Shown one piece after another: positions 6,104 to 59,664 of a DNA stretch of 64,000 bases; the stretch's first letter is position 1; the number at the start of each line of letters is the position of its first letter. The notes beneath the pieces were generated by a model. That model worked only from the letters and a program-made list of their open reading frames with translations, searched no databases and was not told the origin of the DNA. A program made the translations under genes and the position numbers. Source of the stretch: a virus; the IMG/VR virus record IMGVR_UViG_3300022839_000006, positions 144,231-208,230 of that record. One strand, 5' to 3'.

Positions 6104-6484
6104 TTATTGGTAGATTGAAGTGGAGCCGTTCTCACCATCTTCAGATATTTCGATGTGAATGCCACGATCGGGATATCGCGCTGATATCTTCTCTGCAAGA
6201 TCATCTGAAATCATCTCACAGCTTTTGTAGTCTAGCTGCAGGGTACCGTCACCATACAACGATTCAAGCCAACGCTTGAATTGAATAAATTCAATGTCAC
6301 GGTCGTCGTGAAAGACGTCAATGGCCACTTTGATGTGAAAGATGTGACGATGTGGATAACCCAAAAAGCTGACATCATACTCGTCACCTGTAGCGAGTTC
6401 CGGATCAGTCAGGGCAGCGGGATATTTGTGAATCCCCTCTCGCTGAAACTTGACCCAAATACGGTTTGTAATTTTATTTAGCAT
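6104..6484 (-). CDS. Conserved T4-like phage protein of unknown function
   Basis: A 126-aa protein with a distinctive pattern: RIWVKFQREGIHKYPAA, FLGYPHRHIFHIKVAIDVFH, DRDIEFIQFKRWLESLYG, LDYKSCEMISDDLAEKI and HIEISEDGENGS. I recall very similar proteins in marine T4-like phages, where no function is assigned. The paired histidines (HRHIFH) and the CEM segment resemble T-fold enzymes such as 6-pyruvoyl-tetrahydropterin synthases, which would fit the adjacent deazaguanine genes. That link is inference. Confidence 0.75.
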   Translation of the reverse strand: MLNKITNRIWVKFQREGIHKYPAALTDPELATGDEYDVSFLGYPHRHIFHIKVAIDVFHDDRDIEFIQFKRWLESLYGDGTLQLDYKSCEMISDDLAEKISARYPDRGIHIEISEDGENGSTSIYQ

Positions 6485-42394: not shown

Positions 42395-42422
42395 AGCTTA
42401 TAATTCCATTAGAGAGAAGAAA

Positions 42423-42530
42423 ATGAACATTCTACGAACATCGACATCACTGCAGTATGGGAGACCGAATAGTATCAATTCAGGTCGCATTCCATCCGTG
42501 AGTAATATAGCGAAGGCTGATTTAGAATAA
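42423..42530 (+). CDS. 35-aa late protein ending in a hairpin
   Basis: MNILRTSTSLQYGRPNSINS, ending NIAKADLE. A perfect late promoter precedes it. Its last 16 bases form the ascending arm of a long hairpin. Small and unrecognised; could be a virion peptide. Confidence 0.6.
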   Translation: MNILRTSTSLQYGRPNSINSGRIPSVSNIAKADLE

Positions 42531-42592
42531 TAGAGTTTTTTATAAACATTTTTATTCTAAATCAGCCCTGATATTGTTATCAGGGTTTTTTT
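42515..42592 (+). terminator. Double hairpin terminator
   Basis: First a 16-bp perfect stem (GGCTGATTTAGAATAA, complement at 42551-42566), then CCCTGATA-TTGT-TATCAGGG at 42566-42585 followed by seven T. A strong end to the 28.4-42.5 kb transcription unit. Confidence 0.88.
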
Positions 42593-42599
42593 GTTTTAA

Positions 42600-43087
42600 C
42601 GGTTGATGAAAAGGATCGTTGAGTATACTATGAACACTACGGACATCCAAAAAAAGAAGTTTGAAACAACACTACGACTTGGTATTTTTTAGAAATACCA
42701 ACGCTCTTTAAATCTAACTGTATCCTATGATCTTAGAGAATTTTCTCGATGATAGATTGAAAGCAAAGTTTTTGAATATACACTGTTCAAAAACTTTGCG
42801 TGAGGCAATAATTGGTGCACTGCTCTTCAGATTGTGTGGTGGTTGTTGCCTTCTGCTTTCACCTACATTGTCTCTAATCAACAAACAACGTAACTGAAAA
42901 CAGAAGAACTCGTGGTACTGCATACTGCAGCTAAGTCGCCACACTTGTGGTCGAGCCTACCCCGTTGGTAGACAGTCTCTTTGGCTGTATACGAATAGCA
43001 TGACGCCAGATGTAGCTACCTGGAAGTGGACTATATAGTCAGTGACAATTAAACACGTTCGATTCGTGGTCATGCTCACTTATTTCC
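42600..43087 (+). other. Structured non-coding stretch before the tRNA array
   Basis: No convincing gene beyond a 20-codon ORF at 42630-42692 (MNTTDIQKKKFETTLRLGIF). That ORF ends in a hairpin (TTGGTATTT/AAATACCAA) and could be a leader peptide. A 13-bp hairpin lies at about 42770-42803 (CAAAGTTTTTGAA and complement). The element TGCAGCTAAGTCGCCA at 42926-42941 recurs at 44036. A tRNA-like structure follows at 42997. Confidence 0.6.
42997..43077 (+). other. tRNA-like sequence without encoded CCA
   Basis: AGCATGA pairs perfectly with TCATGCT over seven bp. A D-arm (CCAG/CTGG) and a T-arm with the loop TTCGATT are present. The anticodon region (ACTATATAGT) does not give a standard 5-bp stem, and no CCA follows. 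Either a degenerate tRNA or one needing processing and CCA addition. Confidence 0.5.
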
Positions 43088-43128
43088 TGACGCTTAGCGT
43101 TGACGTGCTAGGCGTCATAGTGTAAAAA
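43088..43128 (+). promoter_or_regulatory. Promoter flanked by an 11-bp inverted repeat
   Basis: TGACGCTTAGC (43088-43098) and GCTAGGCGTCA (43107-43117, 10 of 11 complementary) flank TTGACG (43100-43105). The -10 box TAAAAA is 17 bp later and is weak. The layout is the same as at 34851-34891. Confidence 0.55.
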
Positions 43129-43163
43129 GATGTAGCAATCAAAAAAGGTAAAGGAACTAGACA

Positions 43164-43379
43164 ATGATTCGGAACAAAATTGAAAAACGTGAAATCGTTT
43201 TGGACCTTACAGGGCCTGATGGCAATGCATATGCTCTAATGGGATATGCGAGAGACTTGGCAAAACAACTAGGGTTTGATCATGAGCTGATCATAAATGA
43301 AATGAAAAGTGGTGATTACGATAATCTCGTACTTACCTTTGATAGATACTTCGGACGTATCGTAACTTTGGAGCGTTAA
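43164..43379 (+). CDS. Conserved hypothetical 71-aa phage protein
   Basis: MIRNKIEKREIVLDLTGPDG, then YALMGYARDLAKQLGFDHEL and SGDYDNLVLTFDRYFG. I recall very similar short proteins in many T4-like and other phages; no function is known. AAAGGA lies 7 nt upstream. It overlaps no neighbour; the next gene starts one base after its stop. Confidence 0.72.
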   Translation: MIRNKIEKREIVLDLTGPDGNAYALMGYARDLAKQLGFDHELIINEMKSGDYDNLVLTFDRYFGRIVTLER

Positions 43380-43380
43380 T

Positions 43381-43545
43381 ATGGACGTTTATGAAACTAA
43401 CGGCTTTGCGAATCGCGAAGAATATCTCGACACACTTGCAGAAGAGCATGGCCACATTGCTTTTGAACTTGCAGATCTTCTAGGTCCAACCGAAGACTTC
43501 GATGGGTTGGTCACGTCACTAGAAGATGTTGGTGACATGTGGTGA
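43381..43545 (+). CDS. Hypothetical 54-aa acidic protein
   Basis: MDVYETNGFANREEYLDTLA, helical and acidic, ending LVTSLEDVGDMW. GGAG lies 8 nt upstream inside the previous gene. Short proteins of this type recur beside the previous gene in phages, from memory. Confidence 0.62.
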   Translation: MDVYETNGFANREEYLDTLAEEHGHIAFELADLLGPTEDFDGLVTSLEDVGDMW

Positions 43546-43595
43546 TGTACTTTATTGTCAGTAGCGGAACAACTAAGAAAAATAAAATGTAGTCG

Positions 43596-43624
43596 TTGAC
43601 AAAGCTGTACAAATAAGTTACAAT
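43596..43624 (+). promoter_or_regulatory. Early-type promoter of the tRNA array
   Basis: GTTGACA, 17-bp spacer, TACAAT. It would drive the long untranslated leader and the first tRNAs. Confidence 0.75.
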
Positions 43625-44076
43625 GAACGTATCAGATAATAACACACTCTTTGAAACCAACTACAAACGTTGTTAGGTTGAAAGATGATTAAGTATGGAT
43701 AGTATCCTGTAAACCTTAATTGAAATTCTTTCTGTTCTCTACTGCATGTTAGGTATAGTCTACTTGAAAGGTTCTGATTAGTCATTAGGTTACCAAAGTG
43801 GATTAACCTGATAGGAAGCAATCTTTGGACGTGCAGTGGAAAACAGAATAACGTTTAACAACAAAAAAATTCCAGCCTTGGTTAATGCAATGTCTCAGTT
43901 AAAAGCTGTTGTAAAGTGAAACACTACTTGGTAAACTCCCAGGATAGGTCAGAAAGCCAAAACCAACTTTAGGTCAAATTGCCCAAGTGATAGAATGTAT
44001 TTAAAATTAGTAAATTAAAACACGGTAATGCATTGTGCATCTAAGTCGCCATCCGGTAGAGCCAACCACAACCATT
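43625..44076 (+). other. 450-bp leader with degenerate tRNA-like pieces
   Basis: No gene seen. It contains a hairpin AGGTTA/TAACCT near 43783-43809. Around 43921-43995, CACTACTTGG and CCAAGTG enclose a degenerate D-loop-like GGTAAACTCCCAGGA. A second copy of the element CTAAGTCGCC lies at 44041. It looks like transcribed, decayed or processed tRNA-derived sequence. Confidence 0.5.
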
Positions 44077-44147
44077 CCAATGTAGAAGAACTGGTAAACT
44101 CACCAGACGCGAAAGCACTGTAGGTTCGAGTCCTACCATTGGAGCCA
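44077..44147 (+). other. Leu-type tRNA-like gene lacking an anticodon arm
   Basis: TCCAATG pairs perfectly with CATTGGA, followed by G-CCA. The T-arm GTAGG-TTCGAGT-CCTAC is perfect. The D region (GAAGAACTGGTAAACTC) and the variable region (CGCGAAAGCACTG) are those of a class II tRNA. The roughly 17 nt that should form the anticodon arm are missing between them. Confidence 0.6.
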
Positions 44148-44198
44148 AAATTCAATAATATATATTGACACGAAAAGTTTAACACAGAACATTATATT

Positions 44199-44230
44199 AA
44201 GAAGTAATAATCGTGGTCCTTTCGTCTAAT
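44199..44230 (+). repeat. 32-bp direct repeat, copy 1
   Basis: AAGAAGTAATAATCGTGG and the following 14 bases recur at 45057-45088 with one mismatch. The repeat carries the first 16 or so bases of a tRNA (GGTCCTTTCGTCTAAT). Confidence 0.85.
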
Positions 44231-44237
44231 TAATAAC

Positions 44238-44363
44238 GGACCATTAGCTCAGTTGGTTAGAGCAGCGGACTTTGGACAGAGGATTTTAAGTCCTGTGAAG
44301 TGCGAATCTTCTATGTCAACAGTAATCCGCGTGTCCTAGGTTCGAATCCTAGATGGTTCACCA
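44238..44363 (+). tRNA. tRNA-Gln(TTG) with a 49-nt insert in the anticodon loop
   Basis: Acceptor GGACCAT/ATGGTTC, D-stem GCTC/GAGC, anticodon stem GCGGA/TCCGC, T-loop TTCGAAT and CCA are all present. After CTTTG (positions 32-36) the sequence runs 49 nt (44275-44323) before AA and TCCGC. The insert folds by itself: outer GACA/TGTC and an inner T-arm-like GAAG-TGCGAAT-CTTC. Without the insert the loop is CTTTGAA. The insert lies at the place of archaeal and eukaryotic tRNA introns (36/37 or 37/38). Confidence 0.75.
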
Positions 44364-44412
44364 ATAATTGATGTGGAGGAGGTTGAGATACTTTTTGTCA
44401 ATACCAAATAAC

Positions 44413-44499
44413 GGAAGATGATTTAATCTGGTGATTAAGACTGATTGCTAATCAAATCGTGGAGAAATCCATGGGGTTCAATTCCTCCTTCTTCCGCCA
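44413..44499 (+). tRNA. tRNA-Ser(GCT)
   Basis: Class II tRNA with a long variable arm (TCGTGGAGAAATCCATG), anticodon loop centred on GCT, acceptor GGAAGA/TCTTCC, and G-CCA encoded. Confidence 0.85.
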
Positions 44500-44518
44500 A
44501 TAACAAAGTATATTTTGC

Positions 44519-44641
44519 TCTTGTTTAGCTCAGTTGGTAGAGCGCCTGACTGTGGATACTAAAGGTAAATTGTTCAGTTCGATTCTGAAAGTATCAAAAG
44601 TAATCAGGTTGTCGCAGGTTCGAGCCCTGCAACAAGAGCCA
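44519..44641 (+). tRNA. tRNA-His(GTG) with a 47-nt insert in the anticodon loop
   Basis: Acceptor TCTTGTT/AACAAGA with G73 and CCA; D-stem GCTC/GAGC; anticodon stem CCTGA/TCAGG; T-stem GCAGG/CCTGC. After CTGTG come 47 nt (44555-44601), then AA-TCAGG. The insert starts GATAC, ends GTATC-AAAAGT, and contains a perfect T-arm (TTCAG-TTCGATT-CTGAA). The insert has the same place and plan as in the Gln gene 160 bp upstream. No G-1 is encoded. Confidence 0.75.
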
Positions 44642-44660
44642 AATATACTTGCTAACAAAT

Positions 44661-44735
44661 GGGGTCATAGCTCAGTGGGAGAGCAGTTGCTTTGCAAGCA
44701 TCAGGTCCTCGGTTCAAGTCCGAGTGACTCCACCA
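44661..44735 (+). tRNA. tRNA-Ala(TGC)
   Basis: Complete cloverleaf, acceptor GGGGTCA/TGACTCC, anticodon loop TTTGCAA, CCA encoded. Confidence 0.9.
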
Positions 44736-44745
44736 AATAACAAAT

Positions 44746-44820
44746 GCGGGCATAGCTCAGAGGCAGAGCACTAGGTTTCCAACCTGGGTGTCGGGATTTC
44801 GAAATTCCCTGTCCGCTCCA
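44746..44820 (+). tRNA. tRNA-Gly(TCC), copy 1
   Basis: Acceptor GCGGGCA/TGTCCGC, anticodon loop TTTCCAA, T-CCA encoded. A second TCC tRNA is at 46119. Confidence 0.88.
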
Positions 44821-44828
44821 AACAATGA

Positions 44829-44903
44829 TCACTGTCCGTCTATGGGTTAGGACACTACTGCGGAGTCAGTGGAGAGAAAGGTTCAAATCCTTTACAGTAA
44901 CAA
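44829..44903 (+). other. Degenerate tRNA-like sequence, no CCA
   Basis: TCACTGT nearly pairs with ACAGTAA. D-stem GTC/GAC and T-arm AAAGG-TTCAAAT-CCTTT are good. The anticodon region folds as CACT-ACT-GCGG-AGT-C-AGTG and does not present a 7-nt loop. A shortened copy lies at 47061. Confidence 0.5.
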
Positions 44904-44910
44904 TAAACAA

Positions 44911-44987
44911 GGTTCTGTGGCTCAACTGGATAGAGCAACTCCCTTCGAAGGAGTAGGTTATAGGTTCGAATCCTATCAGAATCACCA
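44911..44987 (+). tRNA. tRNA-Arg(TCG)
   Basis: Acceptor GGTTCTG/CAGAATC, anticodon stem ACTCC/GGAGT with loop CTTCGAA, A-CCA encoded. Confidence 0.9.
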
Positions 44988-45017
44988 ATAAGGCATACGG
45001 GAAAGCAAGAAAGACTG

Positions 45018-45046
45018 TTGACGAGTTCTGTAGTTTGTAGTATATT
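45018..45046 (+). promoter_or_regulatory. Early-type promoter inside the tRNA array
   Basis: AGACTGTTGACGAG, then TATATT with a 17-bp spacer. The segment around the -35 is repeated before 47324 and 48242. Confidence 0.75.
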
Positions 45047-45056
45047 AGTGTTAATA

Positions 45057-45088
45057 AGAAGTTATAATCGTGGTCCTTTCGTCTAATG
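45057..45088 (+). repeat. 32-bp direct repeat, copy 2
   Basis: Second copy of the 44199-44230 repeat (one mismatch), directly downstream of a promoter. Confidence 0.85.
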
Positions 45089-45113
45089 GGTTAAGATCCT
45101 ATCTAATTGATAG
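45072..45113 (+). other. 5' tRNA fragment (D-half plus short hairpin)
   Basis: GGTCCTTTCGTCTAATGG looks like the 5' half of an Asp/Glu-type tRNA, then CTATC-TAATT-GATAG forms a hairpin. No T-arm or 3' acceptor follows. A tRNA remnant or half. Confidence 0.5.
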
Positions 45114-45139
45114 TGTAGTAAAAGTAAGAACATAATCGT

Positions 45140-45216
45140 GGGCCAGTAGCTCAATTGGTTTGAGCAATCCCCTCATAAGGGAGAGGTTGTAGGTTCAAGT
45201 CCTACCTGGCCTACCA
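45140..45216 (+). tRNA. tRNA with CAT anticodon (Ile2 or Met)
   Basis: Acceptor GGGCCAG/CTGGCCT, anticodon loop CTCATAA, A-CCA encoded. CAT is read as Met, or as Ile(AUA) after lysidine modification. The phage TilS-like protein (32123) makes tRNA-Ile2 the likelier identity, as in T4. Confidence 0.85.
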
Positions 45217-45249
45217 TTATGTTCTTACATTAAAATTTAGGAGTTTCTT

Positions 45250-45936
45250 ATGAGTCAAGTTTGGGATGCGCTTGTCGACATTCAAGACAGGTTAGTTCAA
45301 AGATTTGAGTCTAGTGGACATGAGGTGTTTGAAGAAGGCATGACCCAGTTTAACAAACCAAACTGGGTCAACAGAGTGTGGACCAGTGAAAACTACCGTC
45401 GTGCACATGTTGATGTGGTAGATGTTAGAGAGACAAAAGGTCTTTGGATGATGCATTGTTGCATATTCCCACACCTACACAACAACGGTCCTATTTTTGG
45501 TCTTGATGTAATTGCAGGCAAAAATAAAATTACTGGATTTTTCCATGATTATTCTGCGAGTGTAGATGTTGAACATGAAATGATTATCAACTTTGGCGAA
45601 GAAGTTGACAGTTTAGAATGGCGAAAGAAACGCGATCTACCAGATTGGGCAAAAGCTATTTTTAGCCCGCATATGATTGCAGCAGGTAATATAAATATTA
45701 AAGAAGAGATTGATCAGATTGTAGAAGTCAGTTGTAAAAGCATAGACGAATATCTTTTGAGTATAGGAAAAACTAACAACACGTCTGATACAATTTTAGT
45801 GAAAGAAGCGCAAAATCGCTACGCATATTATCAGAAGCAAAACCCCCACACTCCTAAGACAATGGTTAGTTTGGGACTGTCCGAAGAAGATGTGAAGACA
45901 TTCATACAAGAATGTCTTTTTCCAGAAATTAAATAA
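45250..45936 (+). CDS. pcyX: Ferredoxin-dependent bilin reductase (PcyX-like)
   Basis: Reduces biliverdin, probably to phycoerythrobilin, with electrons from ferredoxin. 228 aa: MTQFNKPNWVNRVWTSENYR near residue 31, then the family core HCCIFPHLHNNGPIFGLDVI near 76 with the conserved Asp, and ITGFFHDYSASVD near 98. It is shorter and more diverged than cyanobacterial PcyA and matches the PcyX type described from marine metagenomic phage DNA. It lies within the tRNA array, 33 bp after a tRNA gene, with AGGAG near the ATG. The substrate would come from the heme oxygenase at 59092. Confidence 0.83.
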   Translation: MSQVWDALVDIQDRLVQRFESSGHEVFEEGMTQFNKPNWVNRVWTSENYRRAHVDVVDVRETKGLWMMHCCIFPHLHNNGPIFGLDVIAGKNKITGFFHDYSASVDVEHEMIINFGEEVDSLEWRKKRDLPDWAKAIFSPHMIAAGNINIKEEIDQIVEVSCKSIDEYLLSIGKTNNTSDTILVKEAQNRYAYYQKQNPHTPKTMVSLGLSEEDVKTFIQECLFPEIK

Positions 45937-46016
45937 CACGTTGACGGATACTAATAACTATGCAGGATTTTGGCATCTGAATACAGATGAAATTTGTGGT
46001 AACGGTTCAAAGAATT

Positions 46017-46085
46017 GTAGGAATTCCATCTAATCATACGCGGAGAGTTTGACCTAACTCGTTGATGCGATTAAGGAATTCCTAC
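46017..46085 (+). other. Long RNA hairpin after pcyX
   Basis: GTAGGAATTCC (46017-46027) and GGAATTCCTAC (46075-46085) pair perfectly, with an inner TAATC/GATTA. A structured 69-nt element, not followed by U. The rest of 45937-46118 holds no gene I can see, apart from a TTGACG box at 45945 without a good -10. Confidence 0.6.
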
Positions 46086-46118
46086 CTGCTAGAGAAATTG
46101 GTCCTCTTTAGACAGTTT

Positions 46119-46192
46119 GCGGCATTGGTATAGGGTATGTGCCTTGGTTTTCCAAACCAAAGAGGTGGGTTAAATTCCCACATGCCGCTCCA
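46119..46192 (+). tRNA. tRNA-Gly(TCC), copy 2
   Basis: Acceptor GCGGCAT/ATGCCGC, anticodon stem TTGGT/ACCAA with loop TTTCCAA, T-CCA encoded. The T-loop is TTAAATT. Confidence 0.85.
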
Positions 46193-46304
46193 AACAACAA
46201 CCGAGTCATTTGGCTTTAAACCTGTCGAACATATTATGGACTATCTACCATATATTGCTTGTATGCCTACATGGTAAATTATAGGCGCTATTTTAAACTA
46301 ATAC

Positions 46305-46379
46305 GCTGATGTGGCCGAATGGTAAGGCAACTGATTTGTAATCAGTAGATTGGGAGTTCGATTCTCTCCATCAGCACCA
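46305..46379 (+). tRNA. tRNA-Thr(TGT)
   Basis: Acceptor GCTGATG/CATCAGC, anticodon loop TTTGTAA, A-CCA encoded. The 112 bp before it (46193-46304) hold nothing I recognise. Confidence 0.9.
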
Positions 46380-46423
46380 AAAATTAAGAAACTAATGATG
46401 TGTATTCACATGATAGTAGTAAT

Positions 46424-46498
46424 GCGGGATTAGCTCAATGGTGGAGCAGTGGTGTTACATACCGAAGGTTGTTAGTTCAAGTCTAACATTCCGTACCA
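46424..46498 (+). tRNA. tRNA-Val(TAC)
   Basis: Acceptor GCGGGAT/ATTCCGT with wobble pairs, anticodon loop GTTACAT, A-CCA encoded. The anticodon stem has one mismatch. Confidence 0.82.
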
Positions 46499-46503
46499 AA
46501 CAA

Positions 46504-46568
46504 TGTCGTCTTAGCTCAGGTGGTTACGAACCAGAGTGTCCGGAGTTAGAACTTTCGTGGCAGCACCA
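46504..46568 (+). pseudogene. Degenerate tRNA remnant
   Basis: TGTCGTCTTAGCTCAGGTGG starts as a tRNA, but the anticodon and T-arms are broken within 65 nt. It ends GCA-CCA. Confidence 0.5.
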
Positions 46569-46609
46569 CTATTCAATAAACTCACGTGCGTAAATTAGCG
46601 AGTTTGTTG

Positions 46610-46638
46610 TTGACTATCTGTTCTAGATGTACTAATAT
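46610..46638 (+). promoter_or_regulatory. Early-type promoter
   Basis: GTTGACT, 17-bp spacer, TAATAT, directly before a decayed reading frame. Confidence 0.7.
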
Positions 46639-46866
46639 GAATTATAAACAAATTGAAGATGCTTAGTATGATAATTATCACTGGATACAAGATCTGAAAG
46701 AGAGCATCGGAAAGAAACTGACATACAAGGAAACTTCGTTGTTTGGCAACGAATATAAAGATGGAGAGTTCGTGGGTGCTCACCCCCTGCAGTGACCGGA
46801 CTACCTGGTCGTGAATTCCTTACAACGTTCACAATGGAAAATCGTGTGATTGTTGAGGTAAGCTAA
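46637..46866 (+). pseudogene. Decayed small protein gene
   Basis: From ATG 46637 the frame reads MNYKQIEDA, stop (TAG), YDNYHWIQDLKESIGKKLTY, GNEYKDGEFVGAHPLQ, stop (TGA), PDYLVV. A frame shift then leads to FTMENRVIVEVS and a stop at 46866. The stretches are protein-like and a promoter is present, so this looks like a recently broken gene. Identity unknown. Confidence 0.6.
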
Positions 46867-46879
46867 AAAGAATATATTT

Positions 46880-46964
46880 GGGGCCGTGGTGGAATTGGTA
46901 GACACATCACGTTTAGGTCGTGACGCCGCAAGGTATGAGAGTTCGAGTCTCTCTGGCCCCACCA
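46880..46964 (+). tRNA. tRNA-Leu(TAG)
   Basis: Class II; acceptor GGGGCCG/TGGCCCC, anticodon stem TCACG/CGTGA with loop TTTAGGT, A-CCA encoded. Confidence 0.92.
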
Positions 46965-46969
46965 AATAC

Positions 46970-47056
46970 GGAAGCTTAATGGCACAGGAGTGTCACCCGG
47001 TCTTGAAAACCGGTGGTACCGCAAGGTATGGGGATCAAGACCTCAGGCTTCCGCCA
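46970..47056 (+). tRNA. tRNA-Ser(TGA)
   Basis: Class II; acceptor GGAAGCT/GGCTTCC, anticodon stem CCGGT/ACCGG with loop CTTGAAA, long variable arm, G-CCA encoded. Confidence 0.92.
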
Positions 47057-47060
47057 ATGA

Positions 47061-47100
47061 TCACTGTTCGTCCGTGGGTTCAGACCCTTTGTAGTAATAA
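47061..47100 (+). pseudogene. Shortened copy of the 44829 tRNA-like sequence
   Basis: TGATCACTGTTCGTCCGTGG and TAATAATAAACAAGG match 44826-44911, but the anticodon and T-arm part is deleted. Part of a duplicated block. Confidence 0.6.
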
Positions 47101-47107
47101 TAAACAA

Positions 47108-47180
47108 GGTTCTGTAGCTCAACTGGATAGAGCAAAAGTAAGGGAGTAGGTTATAGGTTCGAATCCTACCTAGCCTACCA
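47108..47180 (+). pseudogene. Chimeric tRNA without an anticodon arm
   Basis: The 5' part (GGTTCTGTAGCTCAACTGG) matches tRNA-Arg(TCG) at 44911. The 3' part (TCCTACCTAGCCTACCATTA) matches the CAT tRNA at 45140 and its flank. Between them AAAAGTAAGGGAGTAGG replaces the anticodon arm. A product of recombination between array members. Confidence 0.65.
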
Positions 47181-47323
47181 TTATGCTCTTAAAGTCAGAG
47201 ACGAAACACAAGTGACGAGTTAACTAACTCTTCTAATTTCCTTGCCAATAAACCACTGTATAGTTGGACCATCTCTCACTAACCACGAATGTGCGTTGTG
47301 TTAAAGTTGTGCGAGAAAGACCG

Positions 47324-47352
47324 TTGACGAGTTGTATGGTTTGTTGTATATG
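47324..47352 (+). promoter_or_regulatory. Early-type promoter
   Basis: GAAAGACCGTTGACGAG, 17-bp spacer, TATATG, 30 bp before the 75-aa gene; near copy of the promoter at 45018. Confidence 0.75.
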
Positions 47353-47381
47353 CAATGTAACAGATGACAAAGGACATTATC

Positions 47382-47609
47382 ATGTTTCTCACACACCAAA
47401 TGACAAAATCAACCCCAATGGCAGAAAATGTGACAGTAAACGGAATTAAAAATTGCGGCTTGAGAGTGGGCGATGTTATCAAATCCAACGATGCTGCTTA
47501 CTTCCGGGTTGAAAGTTTTGTTTTTACTGAGAATATGATTGTAGTGGAGACAATTGACGGAGGACACATGAGGATTTCAGGTTCCAATAAAATTGATCTG
47601 ATATGCTAG
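47382..47609 (+). CDS. Hypothetical 75-aa protein in the tRNA array
   Basis: MFLTHQMTKSTPMAENVTVN, then LRVGDVIKSNDAAYFRVESF and a beta-rich end. AAGGA lies 8 nt upstream of ATG 47382, better than the in-frame ATG at 47364. Unrecognised. Confidence 0.6.
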   Translation: MFLTHQMTKSTPMAENVTVNGIKNCGLRVGDVIKSNDAAYFRVESFVFTENMIVVETIDGGHMRISGSNKIDLIC

Positions 47610-47796
47610 TTAATTAGTTTCAAACAAACACCGCCGCTCACTGGTTTATGTGATGAACTCACAAGGTAAAACTATTATGACTCATGATTTTACTGGACCC
47701 CAATCCGAGTAAATGAGATCGCCGATCAAGGCTCGAATGCTGTAGAGTTCTACAGGCACGCATAACTACAGTACTTTTATCAAGGCAATTTTTGAT

Positions 47797-47873
47797 GGAT
47801 CCTTAGCTCAGTAGGATAGAGCATCGAACTTCTAATTCGAGGGTCCCCAGTTCGAATCTGGGAGGGTCCACCA
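47797..47873 (+). tRNA. tRNA-Arg(TCT)
   Basis: Acceptor GGATCCT/AGGGTCC with one wobble, anticodon stem TCGAA/TTCGA with loop CTTCTAA, A-CCA encoded. The preceding 47610-47796 holds only an 11-codon ORF and nothing else I can name. Confidence 0.9.
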
Positions 47874-48092
47874 CAAATTGCCCTTTACAATTCGCTACGC
47901 GTTAGAACAAGAAGAGCATCTCGTGATTTCGTACGACCCAATATGAGCGAATCTAGCATCAAGGGTTGGCGTGACAAGCAGTCACGCCAACCCTTCTTCA
48001 TGTCTAGAGATCTTATAACTTCAGAGACGACGAGGAAAAGGTTATATCTCTGTGAAAGTGTAGTATGTTAGTTTCATCGAGCATTAGTTTTT

Positions 48093-48150
48093 GGTGCTTC
48101 TGTAGCACAATGGGGACAGTGCTACCGCCTTATGAGCGGTAGGTTGCACC
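48093..48150 (+). other. Ile(TAT)-like tRNA lacking a T-arm
   Basis: GGTGC pairs with GCACC. A 7-bp D-stem (GTAGCAC/GTGCTAC) is followed by anticodon stem ACCGC/GCGGT with loop CTTATGA (TAT, Ile). Where the T-arm and 3' acceptor should be, the sequence passes into an HNH reading frame. Probably a tRNA truncated by a homing-nuclease insertion. Confidence 0.55.
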
Positions 48151-48217
48151 TGGATATTATGAGTGTGATCACATTGTTCCTAGATCACTTGGTGGACATA
48201 CAACATTGAAAATTTAG
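48143..48217 (+). pseudogene. HNH endonuclease remnant fused to the tRNA end
   Basis: The frame GYYECDHIVPRSLGGHTTLK then a stop is the core of an HNH nuclease (ECDHIVPxSxGG). The rest of the gene is absent. It abuts the truncated Ile-type tRNA. Confidence 0.7.
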
Positions 48218-48241
48218 TAAATTTAACGGCAAGAAAGACTG

Positions 48242-48270
48242 TTGACACACACCACCAAAACACATAATAT
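48242..48270 (+). promoter_or_regulatory. Early-type promoter
   Basis: AGACTGTTGACAC, 17-bp spacer, TAATAT; precedes the tRNA-like genes at 48319 and 48435. Confidence 0.75.
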
Positions 48271-48318
48271 CAGTTTAAGAAACAAGACACGAACAAGTAC
48301 AAAAGAGTGACGTTATGT

Positions 48319-48397
48319 GCCCAAGTATCGGAACCGTCTTCTAAACGGTAGTACCGTAATTGGATCGATGGGGGTTCGAATCCCTCCTTGGGCACCA
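48319..48397 (+). other. Arg(TCT)-like tRNA with no normal D-arm
   Basis: Acceptor GCCCAAG/CTTGGGC, A-CCA and T-arm GGGGG-TTCGAAT-CCCTC are good, and ACCGT-CTTCTAA-ACGGT is a perfect anticodon arm (TCT). Only 10 nt (TATCGGA region) stand where the D-arm should be, and about 20 nt replace the variable loop. CGG/CCG could pair around the anticodon arm. Confidence 0.55.
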
Positions 48398-48434
48398 AAG
48401 GTCACTTTTTGGTACTTGATTGTATTAACACAAT

Positions 48435-48556
48435 GCCCATTTGGCGGAATGGTAGACGCCTGAGACTTCTACGATGGTTTTAAAATTGTTTGGGACCATC
48501 GCTAAAAATCTCATGTCCTTAGTGGCGTACCGGTTCGAGTCCGGTAATGGGTACCA
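48435..48556 (+). tRNA. Leu-type tRNA with a 36-nt insert in the anticodon loop
   Basis: Class II body of Leu type (D-arm GGCGGAATGGTAGACGCC, long variable arm), acceptor GCCCATT/AATGGGT, A-CCA encoded. Anticodon stem TGAGA/TCTCA encloses 43 nt instead of 7, with a perfect CGATGG/CCATCG stem flanked by CTA repeats. Removing 36 nt can leave CTTAAAA (TAA, Leu), or CTTCTAA (TCT) if cut at the 37/38 position. Confidence 0.68.
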
Positions 48557-48568
48557 GAATAAACAGAT

Positions 48569-48626
48569 TGCGGGATGGAGCATTCCAGTAACTCGTCAGG
48601 TCGACAACCAAGTCTAGGAGACTCGC
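48569..48626 (+). pseudogene. Initiator-tRNA-like remnant
   Basis: TGCGGGATGGAGCATTCCAG and TAACTCGTCAGG follow the 5' half of initiator tRNA-fMet, but the anticodon loop reads TCGACAA and the T-arm is missing. Confidence 0.5.
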
Positions 48627-48815
48627 TTAACAAATTGTCTTTAACCATCCGAAAAGGAAATTCCTGAATGTTTACAGGGCATGTCGATAATAGCTGGCAG
48701 AAGGTATGGAGACAGATGCTGCACGGCCGTGCAACATAACCAGAACTTCAATTATTGTGACTGTTTGACGAAAGCGGCCCACATCAGTGAATGTGCCACG
48801 CCAAGTTGGTAAAAC

Positions 48816-49082
48816 CACGTTCTTCGATACTCTTACAAATCCAAATTCAATCTTGACAACAAATGTAAATTTGGCCGTGGCGACGAGAATGTACTGACAG
48901 GAGACCAGTTTAAAAATTACAATTACAACAAAAGAGGTCAACACAGATCGTTATCAGCTCTTTTGATTGACGAACATTCGTCCTTGCAGAGTAATTTGAG
49001 CGCGATGGGCATCCAAGAGATGTTCGGATATGGTGTGACATTGGAGAAGAATTCCTTTGTGTTTGGTCTATCCACAAGGTAA
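48816..49082 (+). pseudogene. Remnant reading frame without a start codon
   Basis: An open frame to TAA at 49082 contains CKFGRGDENVLTGDQFKN, RGQHRSLSALLIDEHSSLQS and MGIQEMFGYGVTLEKNSF. It is protein-like but has no usable start; stops lie just upstream. Probably the end of a lost gene. The sequence from 48627 to 48815 holds nothing I recognise. Confidence 0.5.
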
Positions 49083-49105
49083 CATTCGATCTTAGAAATA
49101 ATTAC

Positions 49106-49180
49106 GCCCCTGTAACTCAGTTGGTCGAGCGTCTGGCCACTAATCAGACTGTCGTAAGTTCGAACCCCGCAAGAGGAGCA
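49106..49180 (+). pseudogene. Degenerate tRNA
   Basis: GCCCCTGTAACTCAGTTGG, anticodon stem TCTGG/TCAGA, loop CCACTAA without the invariant U33, broken T-stem and no complete CCA. Confidence 0.55.
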
Positions 49181-49209
49181 ATCTTTTTATTATGACACGA
49201 AGATATCTC

Positions 49210-49238
49210 TTGACGTCACTTACTTTAAAGGCTACAAA
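49210..49238 (+). promoter_or_regulatory. Early-type promoter
   Basis: CTTGACG, 17-bp spacer, TACAAA, 37 bp before the 95-aa gene. Confidence 0.6.
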
Positions 49239-49274
49239 GAATGAGTAAGAAGAAATTAAACGAGAGACACGACA

Positions 49275-49562
49275 ATGAAAATAGGCACACAGATCAACGA
49301 ACTGATGAAAGCACAAGGCTTTGACCACGCCGCTTACGGACGCGTTTCGAGGTACAGCACCAAGGTTGGTCTCCTAATGCACTTGTGGGCCTACACTTCT
49401 GAACACAAGAGAGTTGCTGTGAACCGTAACGAAGATGGCACTTACCACATCGATACAAACCCGACACCCGATAACTGTGCTCCTTGCATCGTTCAAAACA
49501 ACATCGCCGAAGAAGTTCTTTTTGAAACATTCGAAGCTGAAATGAGTTTGTTGGCAGCGTAA
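49275..49562 (+). CDS. Hypothetical 95-aa protein
   Basis: MKIGTQINELMKAQGFDHAA; the middle has TSEHKRVAVNRNEDGTYHID, and the end is acidic. GAGA lies upstream. Unrecognised, with its own promoter. Confidence 0.62.
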   Translation: MKIGTQINELMKAQGFDHAAYGRVSRYSTKVGLLMHLWAYTSEHKRVAVNRNEDGTYHIDTNPTPDNCAPCIVQNNIAEEVLFETFEAEMSLLAA

Positions 49563-50188: not shown

Positions 50189-50701
50189 ATGAAAAAATGT
50201 TATGTCATGGTGGGTGTTCCTGCCAGTGGAAAATCAACATTTGTGAAAAATGTCATTTCTGCTGATCCGGATTCGTACTTTGTATATAGCACTGATCAGT
50301 TTATTGAAGATGCTGCTACTCATTTCAATTCAACGTACAATGAAATGTTCGAGAATAATATCAAGGGGGCAACTGCCTCGATGAATCAGATGTTGGAAGA
50401 AGCGGTTGCTGATGAACGTCAGTGGATTATCTGGGACCAGACAAATCTAGGCATCAAGAAACGGAAGTCAATCATCAACAAGATGAAATCCGTGGGTTAT
50501 TCTGTTGAGTGTGTTAGTTTTACACCTCCAGAAACAGAAAATGAACGTGCTGAATGGCACCGACGTCTAGGGTCTCGTCCAGGTAAGACTATCCCAGACC
50601 ATATTCTAAATAGCATGATGAAAAACTATCAGAAGCCAGAATTGTCAGAGGGGTTCGACGACATCACGACGTATGATATGTTTGGCACTGTGATCACGTG
50701 A
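50189..50701 (+). CDS. Polynucleotide-kinase-like P-loop kinase
   Basis: 170 aa: MVGVPASGKSTFVKNVI (Walker A) near residue 7, STDQFIEDA (acidic pair near 34), WIIWDQTNLGIKKRKSII near 86, and a C-terminal IPDHILNSMMKNYQKPE that recalls T4 Pnk (VPIDVLRSMYKSM). It corresponds to the 5'-kinase domain of T4 polynucleotide kinase without the 3'-phosphatase. A role in RNA 5'-end repair is inferred, and it would fit the tRNA-rich neighbourhood. Confidence 0.8.
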   Translation: MKKCYVMVGVPASGKSTFVKNVISADPDSYFVYSTDQFIEDAATHFNSTYNEMFENNIKGATASMNQMLEEAVADERQWIIWDQTNLGIKKRKSIINKMKSVGYSVECVSFTPPETENERAEWHRRLGSRPGKTIPDHILNSMMKNYQKPELSEGFDDITTYDMFGTVIT

Positions 50702-51070: not shown

Positions 51071-51301
51071 ATGAAACGTGATGACTTTGGAAATAGAATG
51101 AAGGCATTTGAATCAGTTTACACTGATGTTAGAATTCCAATTGAATTGCCAATGATGGTGAGAGTGGATGGCAAAGGGTTCAGCAAGTTTACAAAAGGAT
51201 TCAACAAACCTTTTGACGATGACTTGAGCGGTGCCATGATTGCCATGATGCTGCACCCAAATTCTGCCAGACCGTCAGAGGAATTGTCCTGCGATGGTTA
51301 G
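51071..51301 (+). pseudogene. Truncated Thg1-like 3'-5' nucleotidyltransferase
   Basis: The first 57 residues (DDFGNRMKAFESVYTDVRIP, MMVRVDGKGFSKFTKGFNKP) match the N-terminus of tRNA-His guanylyltransferase/Thg1-like proteins, including the metal-binding RxDGxxF motif. After LSGAMI the sequence changes to a short unrelated tail ending at 51301. Full Thg1 is over 220 aa, so catalysis is not possible alone. A broken gene or a fragment left by deletion. Confidence 0.78.
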
Positions 51302-59091: not shown

Positions 59092-59664
59092 ATGTCATTA
59101 AAAGAGCTGACGTGGGAAAATCACAAAAAGGTCGAGAGAACTGTTTTTGTGAAACGCCTTCTCAAAAAACATCTTTCACAACACCAATATTATGTATATC
59201 TTTGTAACCTACACCACGTGTACGTACATCTTGAAGGATGTGCGAGACAAGTAGGTGTGCTCGAAGGCATTGAAGACATTTCAAGAGCTTCCAAGATGAA
59301 CGACGACATGTTGGAGATGGAGAGCTCAAATGCTTCGTTTGTAGTTCCTACAATGTGTAAAGCTACATACGCTTACATCGACCATTTAAACGCCATCAAA
59401 GAGGATTACGATTCCCTTTTAGCTCATGTTTATGTCAGACACATGGGCGATCTGTCTGGTGGCCAAATTATCAAAAAATACGTGCCAGGACCTTCGACAC
59501 ATTATGAATTTGACTGTGAGGTAGATGACTTGAAAGCTAGAGTGAGAGAAAAATTACATGATGGTCTTGCAACTGAAGCTAACCTGTGCTTTGAATTTGT
59601 CTACAAAGTTTTTGATGAAATTGAAGTGGTGTTTGCTGACATGGAATCGCCGACCAAACCATAA
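59092..59664 (+). CDS. ho: Heme oxygenase
   Basis: Opens heme to biliverdin, CO and iron. 190 aa: LTWENHKKVERTVFVKRLLK at the N-terminus (the heme-ligand His region), CNLHHVYVHLEG, YVRHMGDLSGGQIIKKYVPG near residue 121 (distal-helix glycines), and FVYKVFDEIEVVF near the end. It should supply biliverdin to the PcyX-like reductase 13 kb upstream. AGGAG lies 7 nt upstream. Confidence 0.92.
   Translation: MSLKELTWENHKKVERTVFVKRLLKKHLSQHQYYVYLCNLHHVYVHLEGCARQVGVLEGIEDISRASKMNDDMLEMESSNASFVVPTMCKATYAYIDHLNAIKEDYDSLLAHVYVRHMGDLSGGQIIKKYVPGPSTHYEFDCEVDDLKARVREKLHDGLATEANLCFEFVYKVFDEIEVVFADMESPTKP

Follow-up and report, generated by a model that had tools for sequence, protein, structure and literature searches.

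Interrupted tRNA-Lys, tRNA-Asn and tRNA-Leu genes and a D-armless tRNA-Arg gene in the tRNA array of a T4-like phage: candidates for tRNA splicing and for a non-cloverleaf tRNA

The closest described counterparts of the genes analyzed here are the tRNA introns of archaea and eukaryotic nuclei, the group I introns of bacterial tRNA genes, the D-armless tRNA-Ser of metazoan mitochondria, and the Pnkp/Rnl1 system of phage T4, which repairs tRNA damage caused by host PrrC. According to excerpts of a 2014 review, all phage introns known until then were located in protein genes, despite the many tRNA genes of phages (PMC3984707). The stretch of DNA analyzed in this study (the window) is the last 64 kb (positions 144,231 to 208,230) of the 208,230-bp viral record IMGVR_UViG_3300022839_000006 (G000), from a phage T4-like in character which encodes DNA polymerase and topoisomerase II subunits. 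A tRNA array spans 44.0–48.6 kb of the window, with ordinary genes and abnormal ones between them. This array consists of debris and of two conserved non-canonical tRNA designs, namely tRNA-Lys, tRNA-Asn and tRNA-Leu genes interrupted in the anticodon loop, and a tRNA-Arg gene without a D-arm; most of the odd genes whose acceptor stems are good probably belong to these conserved designs and are not products of decay. An earlier sequence-only reading had pointed out the odd character of the array, in which plain ARAGORN indeed detects nine ordinary tRNAs (44661–47873) with abnormal genes among them; the three whole genes interrupted in the anticodon loop went unnamed in it. All tRNA and tRNA-like features given below by window coordinates are on the + strand. 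The relatives compared were chosen by sequence similarity or pattern, the structure tests were run on related sequences, and IMG/VR contigs may be fragments.

The three interrupted genes have about 122 nucleotides (nt) each and none of them was called by plain ARAGORN; the Rfam tRNA model added 44238–44360, 44519–44638 and 48435–48553, as well as 48319–48394, to the ARAGORN calls. The tRNA-Lys(UUU) gene (44238–44363; 55.9 bits with the Rfam tRNA model over 123 nt) is split between anticodon positions 35 and 36 into exons 44238–44273 and 44323–44363, and its in silico splicing gave Lys(ttt) with the acceptor strands GGACCAT/ATGGTTC, A73 and CCA. The tRNA-Asn(GUU) gene (44519–44641; 56.4 bits) is split at the same site into exons 44519–44553 and 44601–44641 and shows U1-A72 and G73. 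The tRNA-Leu(UAA) gene (48435–48556; 42.5 bits), with exons 48435–48468 and 48505–48556, is split between positions 34 and 35, and its spliced form was called as Leu(taa). ARAGORN in intron mode called all three genes, with inserts of 49, 47 and 36 nt; the first two were labeled Lys(ttt) and Asn(gtt), and the third was labeled Phe through a different choice of ends. One extra intron-mode call in the array was an artefact joining two neighboring tRNAs. These calls exceed chance: intron mode called nothing in 2.56 Mb of shuffled window sequence (40 Markov shuffles) or in 453 kb from 52 unrelated viral loci, and made two calls in 141 kb from 20 bacterial loci, which contain 44 plain tRNAs.

After removal of the insert at the fixed site (35/36 for Lys and Asn, 34/35 for Leu), a tRNA was called in all 14 genes tested from the window and its relatives, and in none of them before. 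The isotypes were Asn for the six Asn-type genes tested, Lys for three genes and Leu(taa) for four out of four; one class II gene gave "Asn(gtt)". These inserts (range 32–50 nt) are putative introns in the broad sense, their removal restoring a tRNA of consistent isotype in all 14 genes. When the splice ends of the window Lys, Asn and Leu genes were moved by one or two positions other isotypes were obtained; His/Gln and Thr, which resulted from shifted sites, were rejected on account of U1-A72 and G73, which are retained in six of six Asn-type genes. The Lys genes of the window and of Agrobacterium phage Atu_ph07 have G1 and A73. In the stretches examined with plain ARAGORN, no intact Lys or Leu(UAA) tRNA was found in G000, and no intact Asn tRNA in G000–G003 and G007.

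The Asn gene including its insert was found by blastn in Atu_ph07, where it is 85% identical and unannotated. Between the two phages a 6-bp helix of the insert is changed on both sides, from GATACT/AGTATC to AGAGGC/GCCTCT, and the loop parts are unchanged. Atu_ph07 also carries an interrupted Lys gene (68159–68280). The available part of its genome paper reports tRNAs for all amino acids but Asn and Thr (PMC6102473); the interrupted gene is the Asn tRNA absent from the published annotation. When IMG/VR was scanned by pattern, Asn genes were also found in G001 (315 kb), G003 (285 kb), three short contigs with an identical insert (G004–G006) and G007, the last copy being truncated. G005/G006 also have a Lys-type insert, and in G001 a class II tRNA adjoining the Asn gene (L088:2669-2807) contains a second insert of the same class and would read GUU once this is removed. 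Hairpin-type inserts in Leu(UAA) genes occur in four more contigs and are of three kinds (L101, L102 and L103/L105). Among cultured phages, BLAST searches with the interrupted tRNAs or their middles gave insert-spanning matches in Atu_ph07 alone (two records). Hairpin inserts at the anticodon or close to it were seen in further tRNA genes: Atu_ph07 (L092:13106-13214, Met/Ile-CAU-like), G001 (L090:1664-1771, Gln-like), L087:16368-16480 (class II) and L138:5213-5307 (no isotype assigned). The pattern matches L003/L005/L007, L006, L015 and L104 were rejected as chance, as were, for lack of tRNA likeness, 52 of the 58 stretches of one scan (L033–L084); all 20 bacterial matches of a genome_contigs scan, in which the anticodon stem is a normal 5/5 and the insert stem does not exceed 4, proved to be ordinary tRNAs. 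Three intron-mode calls in L026 and L094:4998-5117 were doubtful and were left out of the counts.

The Lys/Asn-type insert (class A) was compared in 10 distinct copies from the window, Atu_ph07 and five other contigs. All of them share the order of a 5' strand (positions 1–7), a linker of 9–16 nt, a T-stem, a 7-nt T-loop, a 3' strand (positions 66–72) and a four-base tail, followed by U36-A37-A38 of the interrupted tRNA. Position 1 is never paired with 72, the fifth place of the T-loop is A, and the T-stem has 5 bp (4 in the Lys type), the G005 copy requiring the 4-bp register. In nine of the 10 copies the tail is AAAG or ACAG, and in nine its AG pairs with C32-U33. In the window, the 47-nt Asn insert (44554–44600; 40.2 bits with R2, the covariance model built for class A) is tRNA-like in its fold, with a seven-layer acceptor-like stem (G1 opposite A72), the linker AAAGG, a 5-bp T-stem, the T-loop UUCGAUU and the tail AAAG; the 49-nt Lys insert (44274–44322; R2 38.9 bits at 44265–44330) shows an acceptor-like stem, a central hairpin, a T-arm-like hairpin and the tail ACAG. 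The 36-nt Leu insert (48469–48504) folds as a hairpin without a T-arm-like part; the whole Leu gene has a folding z of −3.05, none of 200 shuffles being equally stable, and the relatives L102 and L103 have −4.44 and −5.02.

With the linkers removed, 94.7% of the 170 cells (17 pairs in 10 class A copies) were paired, and double-sided changes were present in 13 of the 17 pairs. The covariation score was 0.805 against a shuffled mean of 0.193 (0/500 shuffles), and slid registers gave at most 0.164; the inner stem alone was 93% paired and scored 0.942 against 0.251 for shuffles. RNAalifold, unprompted, gave 16 of the 17 pairs. Model R2 scored its own copies at 31 bits or above and everything else in 584 kb at 16.3 or below, and its use over 18 whole records resulted in one extra, weaker copy (G003:26609, 25 bits) with the 5' half unpaired. 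The structures, their conservation, the compensatory changes, the fixed insert position and the isotypes of the spliced forms are all shown by the sequences. Both the finished tRNA and the insert structure seem to be selected, since a tRNA is maintained in the exons and a tRNA-like fold in the insert. The suggestion that the array holds halves to be joined came close for Lys, Asn and Leu, the halves being in cis around a conserved structured insert.

The second design is the gene at 48319–48397, a tRNA-Arg(UCU) gene with CCA which matches the Rfam tRNA model with 41.9 bits, has seven of seven acceptor pairs and, as had been noticed beforehand, lacks a D-arm. A 3-bp helix (48329–48331/48354–48356) encloses its anticodon arm, and a D-loop-like GGA (48362–48364) is located after that arm. 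A local search gave a 78% identical relative in G007, in which changes of the acceptor and anticodon stems are compensated, and blastn added relatives lacking annotation in Limnohabitans phage DC31, Salmonella phage SSBI34, Stenotrophomonas phage SOVA965, Agrobacterium phage Atu_ph04 and the Listeria-labeled phage LPML1 (taxonomy Ounavirinae). A search with the LPML1 copy matched 252 phage records at E ≤ 0.01, including phi92 and Felix O1-like phages; 171 of these cover at least 80% of the query, and some others match part of it only. Among the best 60 of the 252 rows a tRNA label was found on four (two tRNA-OTHER, one tRNA-TERM and one plain tRNA). HNH endonuclease genes adjoin the D-armless gene in five annotated phage records (L143, L145, L148, L150 and L154).

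Eighteen copies (window, G007, the five named phages and 11 hand-picked for diversity from the BLAST lists) were aligned. RNAalifold, unprompted, gave the acceptor, T and anticodon stems and the 3-bp helix enclosing the anticodon arm; 98.6% of 360 cells were paired and 15 of 20 pairs showed double-sided changes, values reached by none of 500 shuffles. The enclosing helix was paired in 54 of 54 cells, with double changes in two of its three pairs. The stem-preserving changes in relatives that the sequence-only reading had proposed as a check are therefore present for this gene; the sister contig L019 comes from the same phage, being a fragment with 100% identity, and gave no independent evidence. 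All 18 copies lack the D-arm, have the other arms intact and depart from the canonical cloverleaf. Their anticodon loop has a constant 7 nt with U33, the anticodon is UCU in 17 and CCU in one, and a D-loop-like GG followed by A is located behind the anticodon arm in every copy. The corresponding model R1 gave 83 bits for the window gene and 10 places of at least 46 bits in 599 kb, including copies in G003, G004, G005/G006, G007 and L026, every other match being at 37.2 bits or below.

In a set of 25 D-armless copies, GGA was found in all 23 with an Arg anticodon (UCU, CCU or ACG) and GGU in the other two. Two D-armless tRNA-like genes of the 373-kb contig L026 (L026:5614-5691 and 6263-6338) have the anticodon UAU and, doubtfully, UGA, so the fold does not appear to be confined to arginine. 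The bacterial tRNA-Arg features C35, U/G36 and A20 are present, if from its position the A of GGA is taken as A20, which according to the part of the paper available is the main arginylation determinant of E. coli ArgRS (PMC9976931). From these sequence features the D-armless gene is probably an arginine tRNA. The array stretches of phi92 and Alf5 contain all Rfam tRNA matches of both whole genomes, and in them ARAGORN called 15 and 24 canonical tRNAs, respectively, none of them Arg. The D-armless gene (KX377933, 25847–25924) appears to be the sole arginine tRNA of Alf5, which is recorded from E. coli K12, and is likewise the only one found in phi92.

Taken jointly, it is on balance probable that the Lys, Asn and Leu genes are intron-containing tRNA genes and that 48319 is a working tRNA-Arg without a D-arm. 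An RNase P substrate consists of an acceptor stem stacked on a T-stem, with about 12 layers from the T-loop to the cut; the acceptor-like and T-stem layers of the inserts are 7+5 in seven Asn-type copies (the class II one counted) and 7+4 in the Lys type. In the proposed mechanism the pre-tRNA would fold with the insert extruded from the anticodon loop, and the Lys/Asn insert would be a minimal tRNA of acceptor-like stem and T-arm whose 5' end corresponds to the place of RNase P cleavage in a tRNA of 7+5 layers and whose 3' end corresponds to base 76. Pairing of the last two insert bases with C32 and U33 would bring the exon ends together, cuts resembling tRNA processing (between U35 and G1 and between G76 and U36) would excise the insert, and joining of the exons would give a normal tRNA-Asn(GUU) or tRNA-Lys(UUU); the Leu class would be cut at 34/35. 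The role of RNase P is the weakest step of this proposal. A T4-Rnl1-type phage ligase could join the exons where present, and otherwise another activity could. A profile search showed Rnl1 (PF09511) encoded in G000, G002 and G003 and did not find it in five shorter contigs. For the D-armless gene, the 3-bp helix may stand in for the D-stem, and GGA behind the anticodon arm may supply both the T-loop contact bases and the arginine identity base A20. The strongest form of the proposal, a minimal tRNA nested in the anticodon of another, cut by RNase P at its 5' site and sealed by a phage ligase, together with a non-cloverleaf tRNA-Arg with a moved D-loop identity element working in ordinary bacterial translation, is put forward tentatively and falls somewhat short of an even chance.

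Several points weigh against these conclusions. We infer excision, joining, the enzymes, charging and use in translation, and no enzyme making the excision cuts was identified. The profile search gave no Rnl1 or RtcB in G001 (315 kb, which may be incomplete), and RtcB was absent from all four genomes tested, so that a phage ligase is not general. In G000 itself the Rnl1 gene lies in two open reading frames (202 and 185 amino acids; G000:62683-63291 and 63672-64229, or L140:684-1292 and 1673-2230) with about 380 nt between them which contain an inverted repeat and show no Rfam intron match. Single-sequence folding of seven class A genes was modestly better than that of shuffles (z −0.38 to −2.72). 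One class A copy interrupts a class II tRNA whose anticodon would be GUU, an odd identity; the G005 copy has U73 and the tail AACC instead of the paired AG; and the degenerate G003 copy (25 bits) is without a pairing 5' acceptor half, so some copies may be decaying. G004–G006 carry an intact Asn tRNA besides the interrupted gene, and a canonical Arg(UCU) tRNA makes the D-armless gene redundant in the window (47797–47873, called by ARAGORN, with the identical anticodon), G007 and G003.

Among other explanations, the inserts could be mobile mini-elements homing site-specifically into anticodon loops, where their removal would make them tolerable; this would be compatible with splicing. The insertion site fixed in two isotypes, the like inserts of several phage contigs and the two neighboring copies in G001 are in agreement with this view; the helix sequences are, however, fully diverged between copies, and no associated nuclease was seen, although none was sought. 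We regard such elements as rather unlikely. The redundancy of the D-armless gene in the window, G003 and G007 would also be expected of a regulatory or anti-defence tRNA-like RNA unused in translation, an explanation made unlikely by the constant 7-nt anticodon loop with U33, by the association of GGA with Arg anticodons and of GGU with others, and by the lack of any other Arg tRNA among those found in phi92 and Alf5.

It is less likely again that the inserts are kept, never spliced, as decoys or sponges for tRNA-binding proteins or as a shield of the anticodon against host nucleases. A tRNA-like insert could bind RNase P or other tRNA proteins, and anticodon nucleases are known to attack tRNA-Lys(UUU); the exons nevertheless keep isotype features and cloverleaf stems, which are needed only if a tRNA is made. 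Decoy or regulatory roles, also raised by the sequence-only reading, received no specific support.

That all the abnormal genes are decay products of rapid recombination is improbable. Compensatory changes keep the helices in the inserts and in the D-armless gene, the exons give isotype-consistent tRNAs and the insert position is fixed. Real debris is present in the array, and of the two earlier suggestions, fast recombination or functional pieces, each holds for different genes. The stretch 47058–47182 is a degenerate chimera copied from the Glu/Arg/Met part of the array (83% identical to 44880–44975 and 78% to 45146–45218; 25.8 bits, below the cut-off) and, like some of the fragments, looks like decay. 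A 5' fragment of a Glu-like tRNA lies at 45060–45110, its first 28 nt (45060–45087) being a 96% copy of 44203–44230, in agreement with the fragment described near 45072. The piece at 48093–48165, described as a gene with no T-arm, is a weak T-armless match (23.9 bits, below the cut-off) and probably decayed; a comparison with 11 related records gave a single 14-nt chance match and no homologue. The search for relatives of the piece at 46508 was negative, and the initiator-like half at 48569 gave no match in local blastn against the collected loci; these and the degenerate class A copy at G003:26609 are also on the side of decay. The gene at 44076–44150, described as Leu-type with no anticodon arm, is tRNA-like (32.6 bits, seven of seven acceptor pairs, T-arm, GCCA) and has no recognizable anticodon arm, its single central hairpin being ambiguous; it had no full-length relative among the loci compared. 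A Glu-like gene with an abnormal anticodon arm (44830–44904) has a diverged counterpart beside the Asn gene of G007 (L008:9345-9420).

Archaeal-type bulge-helix-bulge introns acquired by phages are highly improbable. A short helix does hold the exon ends with a 3-nt bulge (36–38) on the 3' side, yet the site is 35/36 and not 37/38, and instead of two 3-nt bulges and a 4-bp helix all seven class A folds showed 5+2 bp, a 3 × 3 internal loop and no second 3-nt bulge. A group I intron, with a core of about 200 nt or more, was rejected for inserts of this length, and so were the other Rfam ribozyme families.

Outside the two designs, plain ARAGORN called two more ordinary tRNAs at 56 kb. It missed two class II tRNAs, at 44413–44502 and 46970–47056, assigned by eye as probably Ser(GCU) and probably Ser(UGA); the tRNA-Sec model gave them 41.6 and 42.8 bits, below the family cut-off of 47. 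A short open reading frame at 51071–51301 has a match to the Thg1 (tRNA-His guanylyltransferase) domain, and Thg1 is also reported in the available part of the Atu_ph07 paper (PMC6102473). At 50189–50701 the window encodes a 170-amino acid P-loop kinase of the AAA_33 family, polynucleotide kinase-like and without a phosphatase domain match. Within the array, 45250–45936 encodes a ferredoxin oxidoreductase whose Mosig match makes it bilin reductase-like, and a heme oxygenase gene (59092–59664) lies 13 kb away; the two may belong to a bilin pathway.

In the titles and abstract openings of the open-access literature there was no report of phage tRNA introns or of a D-armless phage tRNA. If the proposal is true, phage biology would come to include tRNA splicing through the anticodon-splitting inserts, T4-type RNA ligases would gain a possible second role, and a working D-armless tRNA-Arg would be at odds with the stated rule that every known bacterial tRNA is a cloverleaf. 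Since interrupted and D-armless genes escape much annotation, the tRNA repertoires of phages are under-counted, as exemplified by the reported Asn gap in Atu_ph07. The presence of the D-armless gene, apparently as sole Arg tRNA, in a phage from E. coli K12 makes the question directly testable.

Compared with archaeal and eukaryotic nuclear tRNA introns, the phage inserts are likewise short, non-coding, located in the anticodon loop, and associated with exon ends held by insert-exon pairing; they differ in the site (35/36 or 34/35), in the tRNA-like Lys/Asn insert with its T-loop and in the missing bulge-helix-bulge. In the comparison with bacterial tRNA group I introns such as that of tRNA-Leu(UAA), the 34/35 site of the Leu insert is that of the cyanobacterial intron; at 32–50 nt, however, the phage inserts are far below a group I core, and no group I family was among the Rfam matches at E ≤ 10 in 42400–49300. 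Rnl1-type repair as in T4 would also seal breaks in the anticodon loop, and the family is encoded in three of these phages, the gap here being left by an excised insert and not by PrrC damage. Metazoan mitochondrial tRNA-Ser, like the D-armless gene, keeps the acceptor, anticodon and T arms and lacks the D-arm, whereas the phage gene is found in phages of ordinary bacteria and has an Arg identity, a 3-bp enclosing helix and GGA behind the anticodon arm. An engineered E. coli tRNA-His without a D-arm (mini HisT) is accepted by HisRS and by the E. coli ribosome, as stated in the available part of the report (PMC11551756); this tRNA is artificial and, as described there, a plain deletion of bases 11–25, whereas the phage gene is natural and carries replacement elements.

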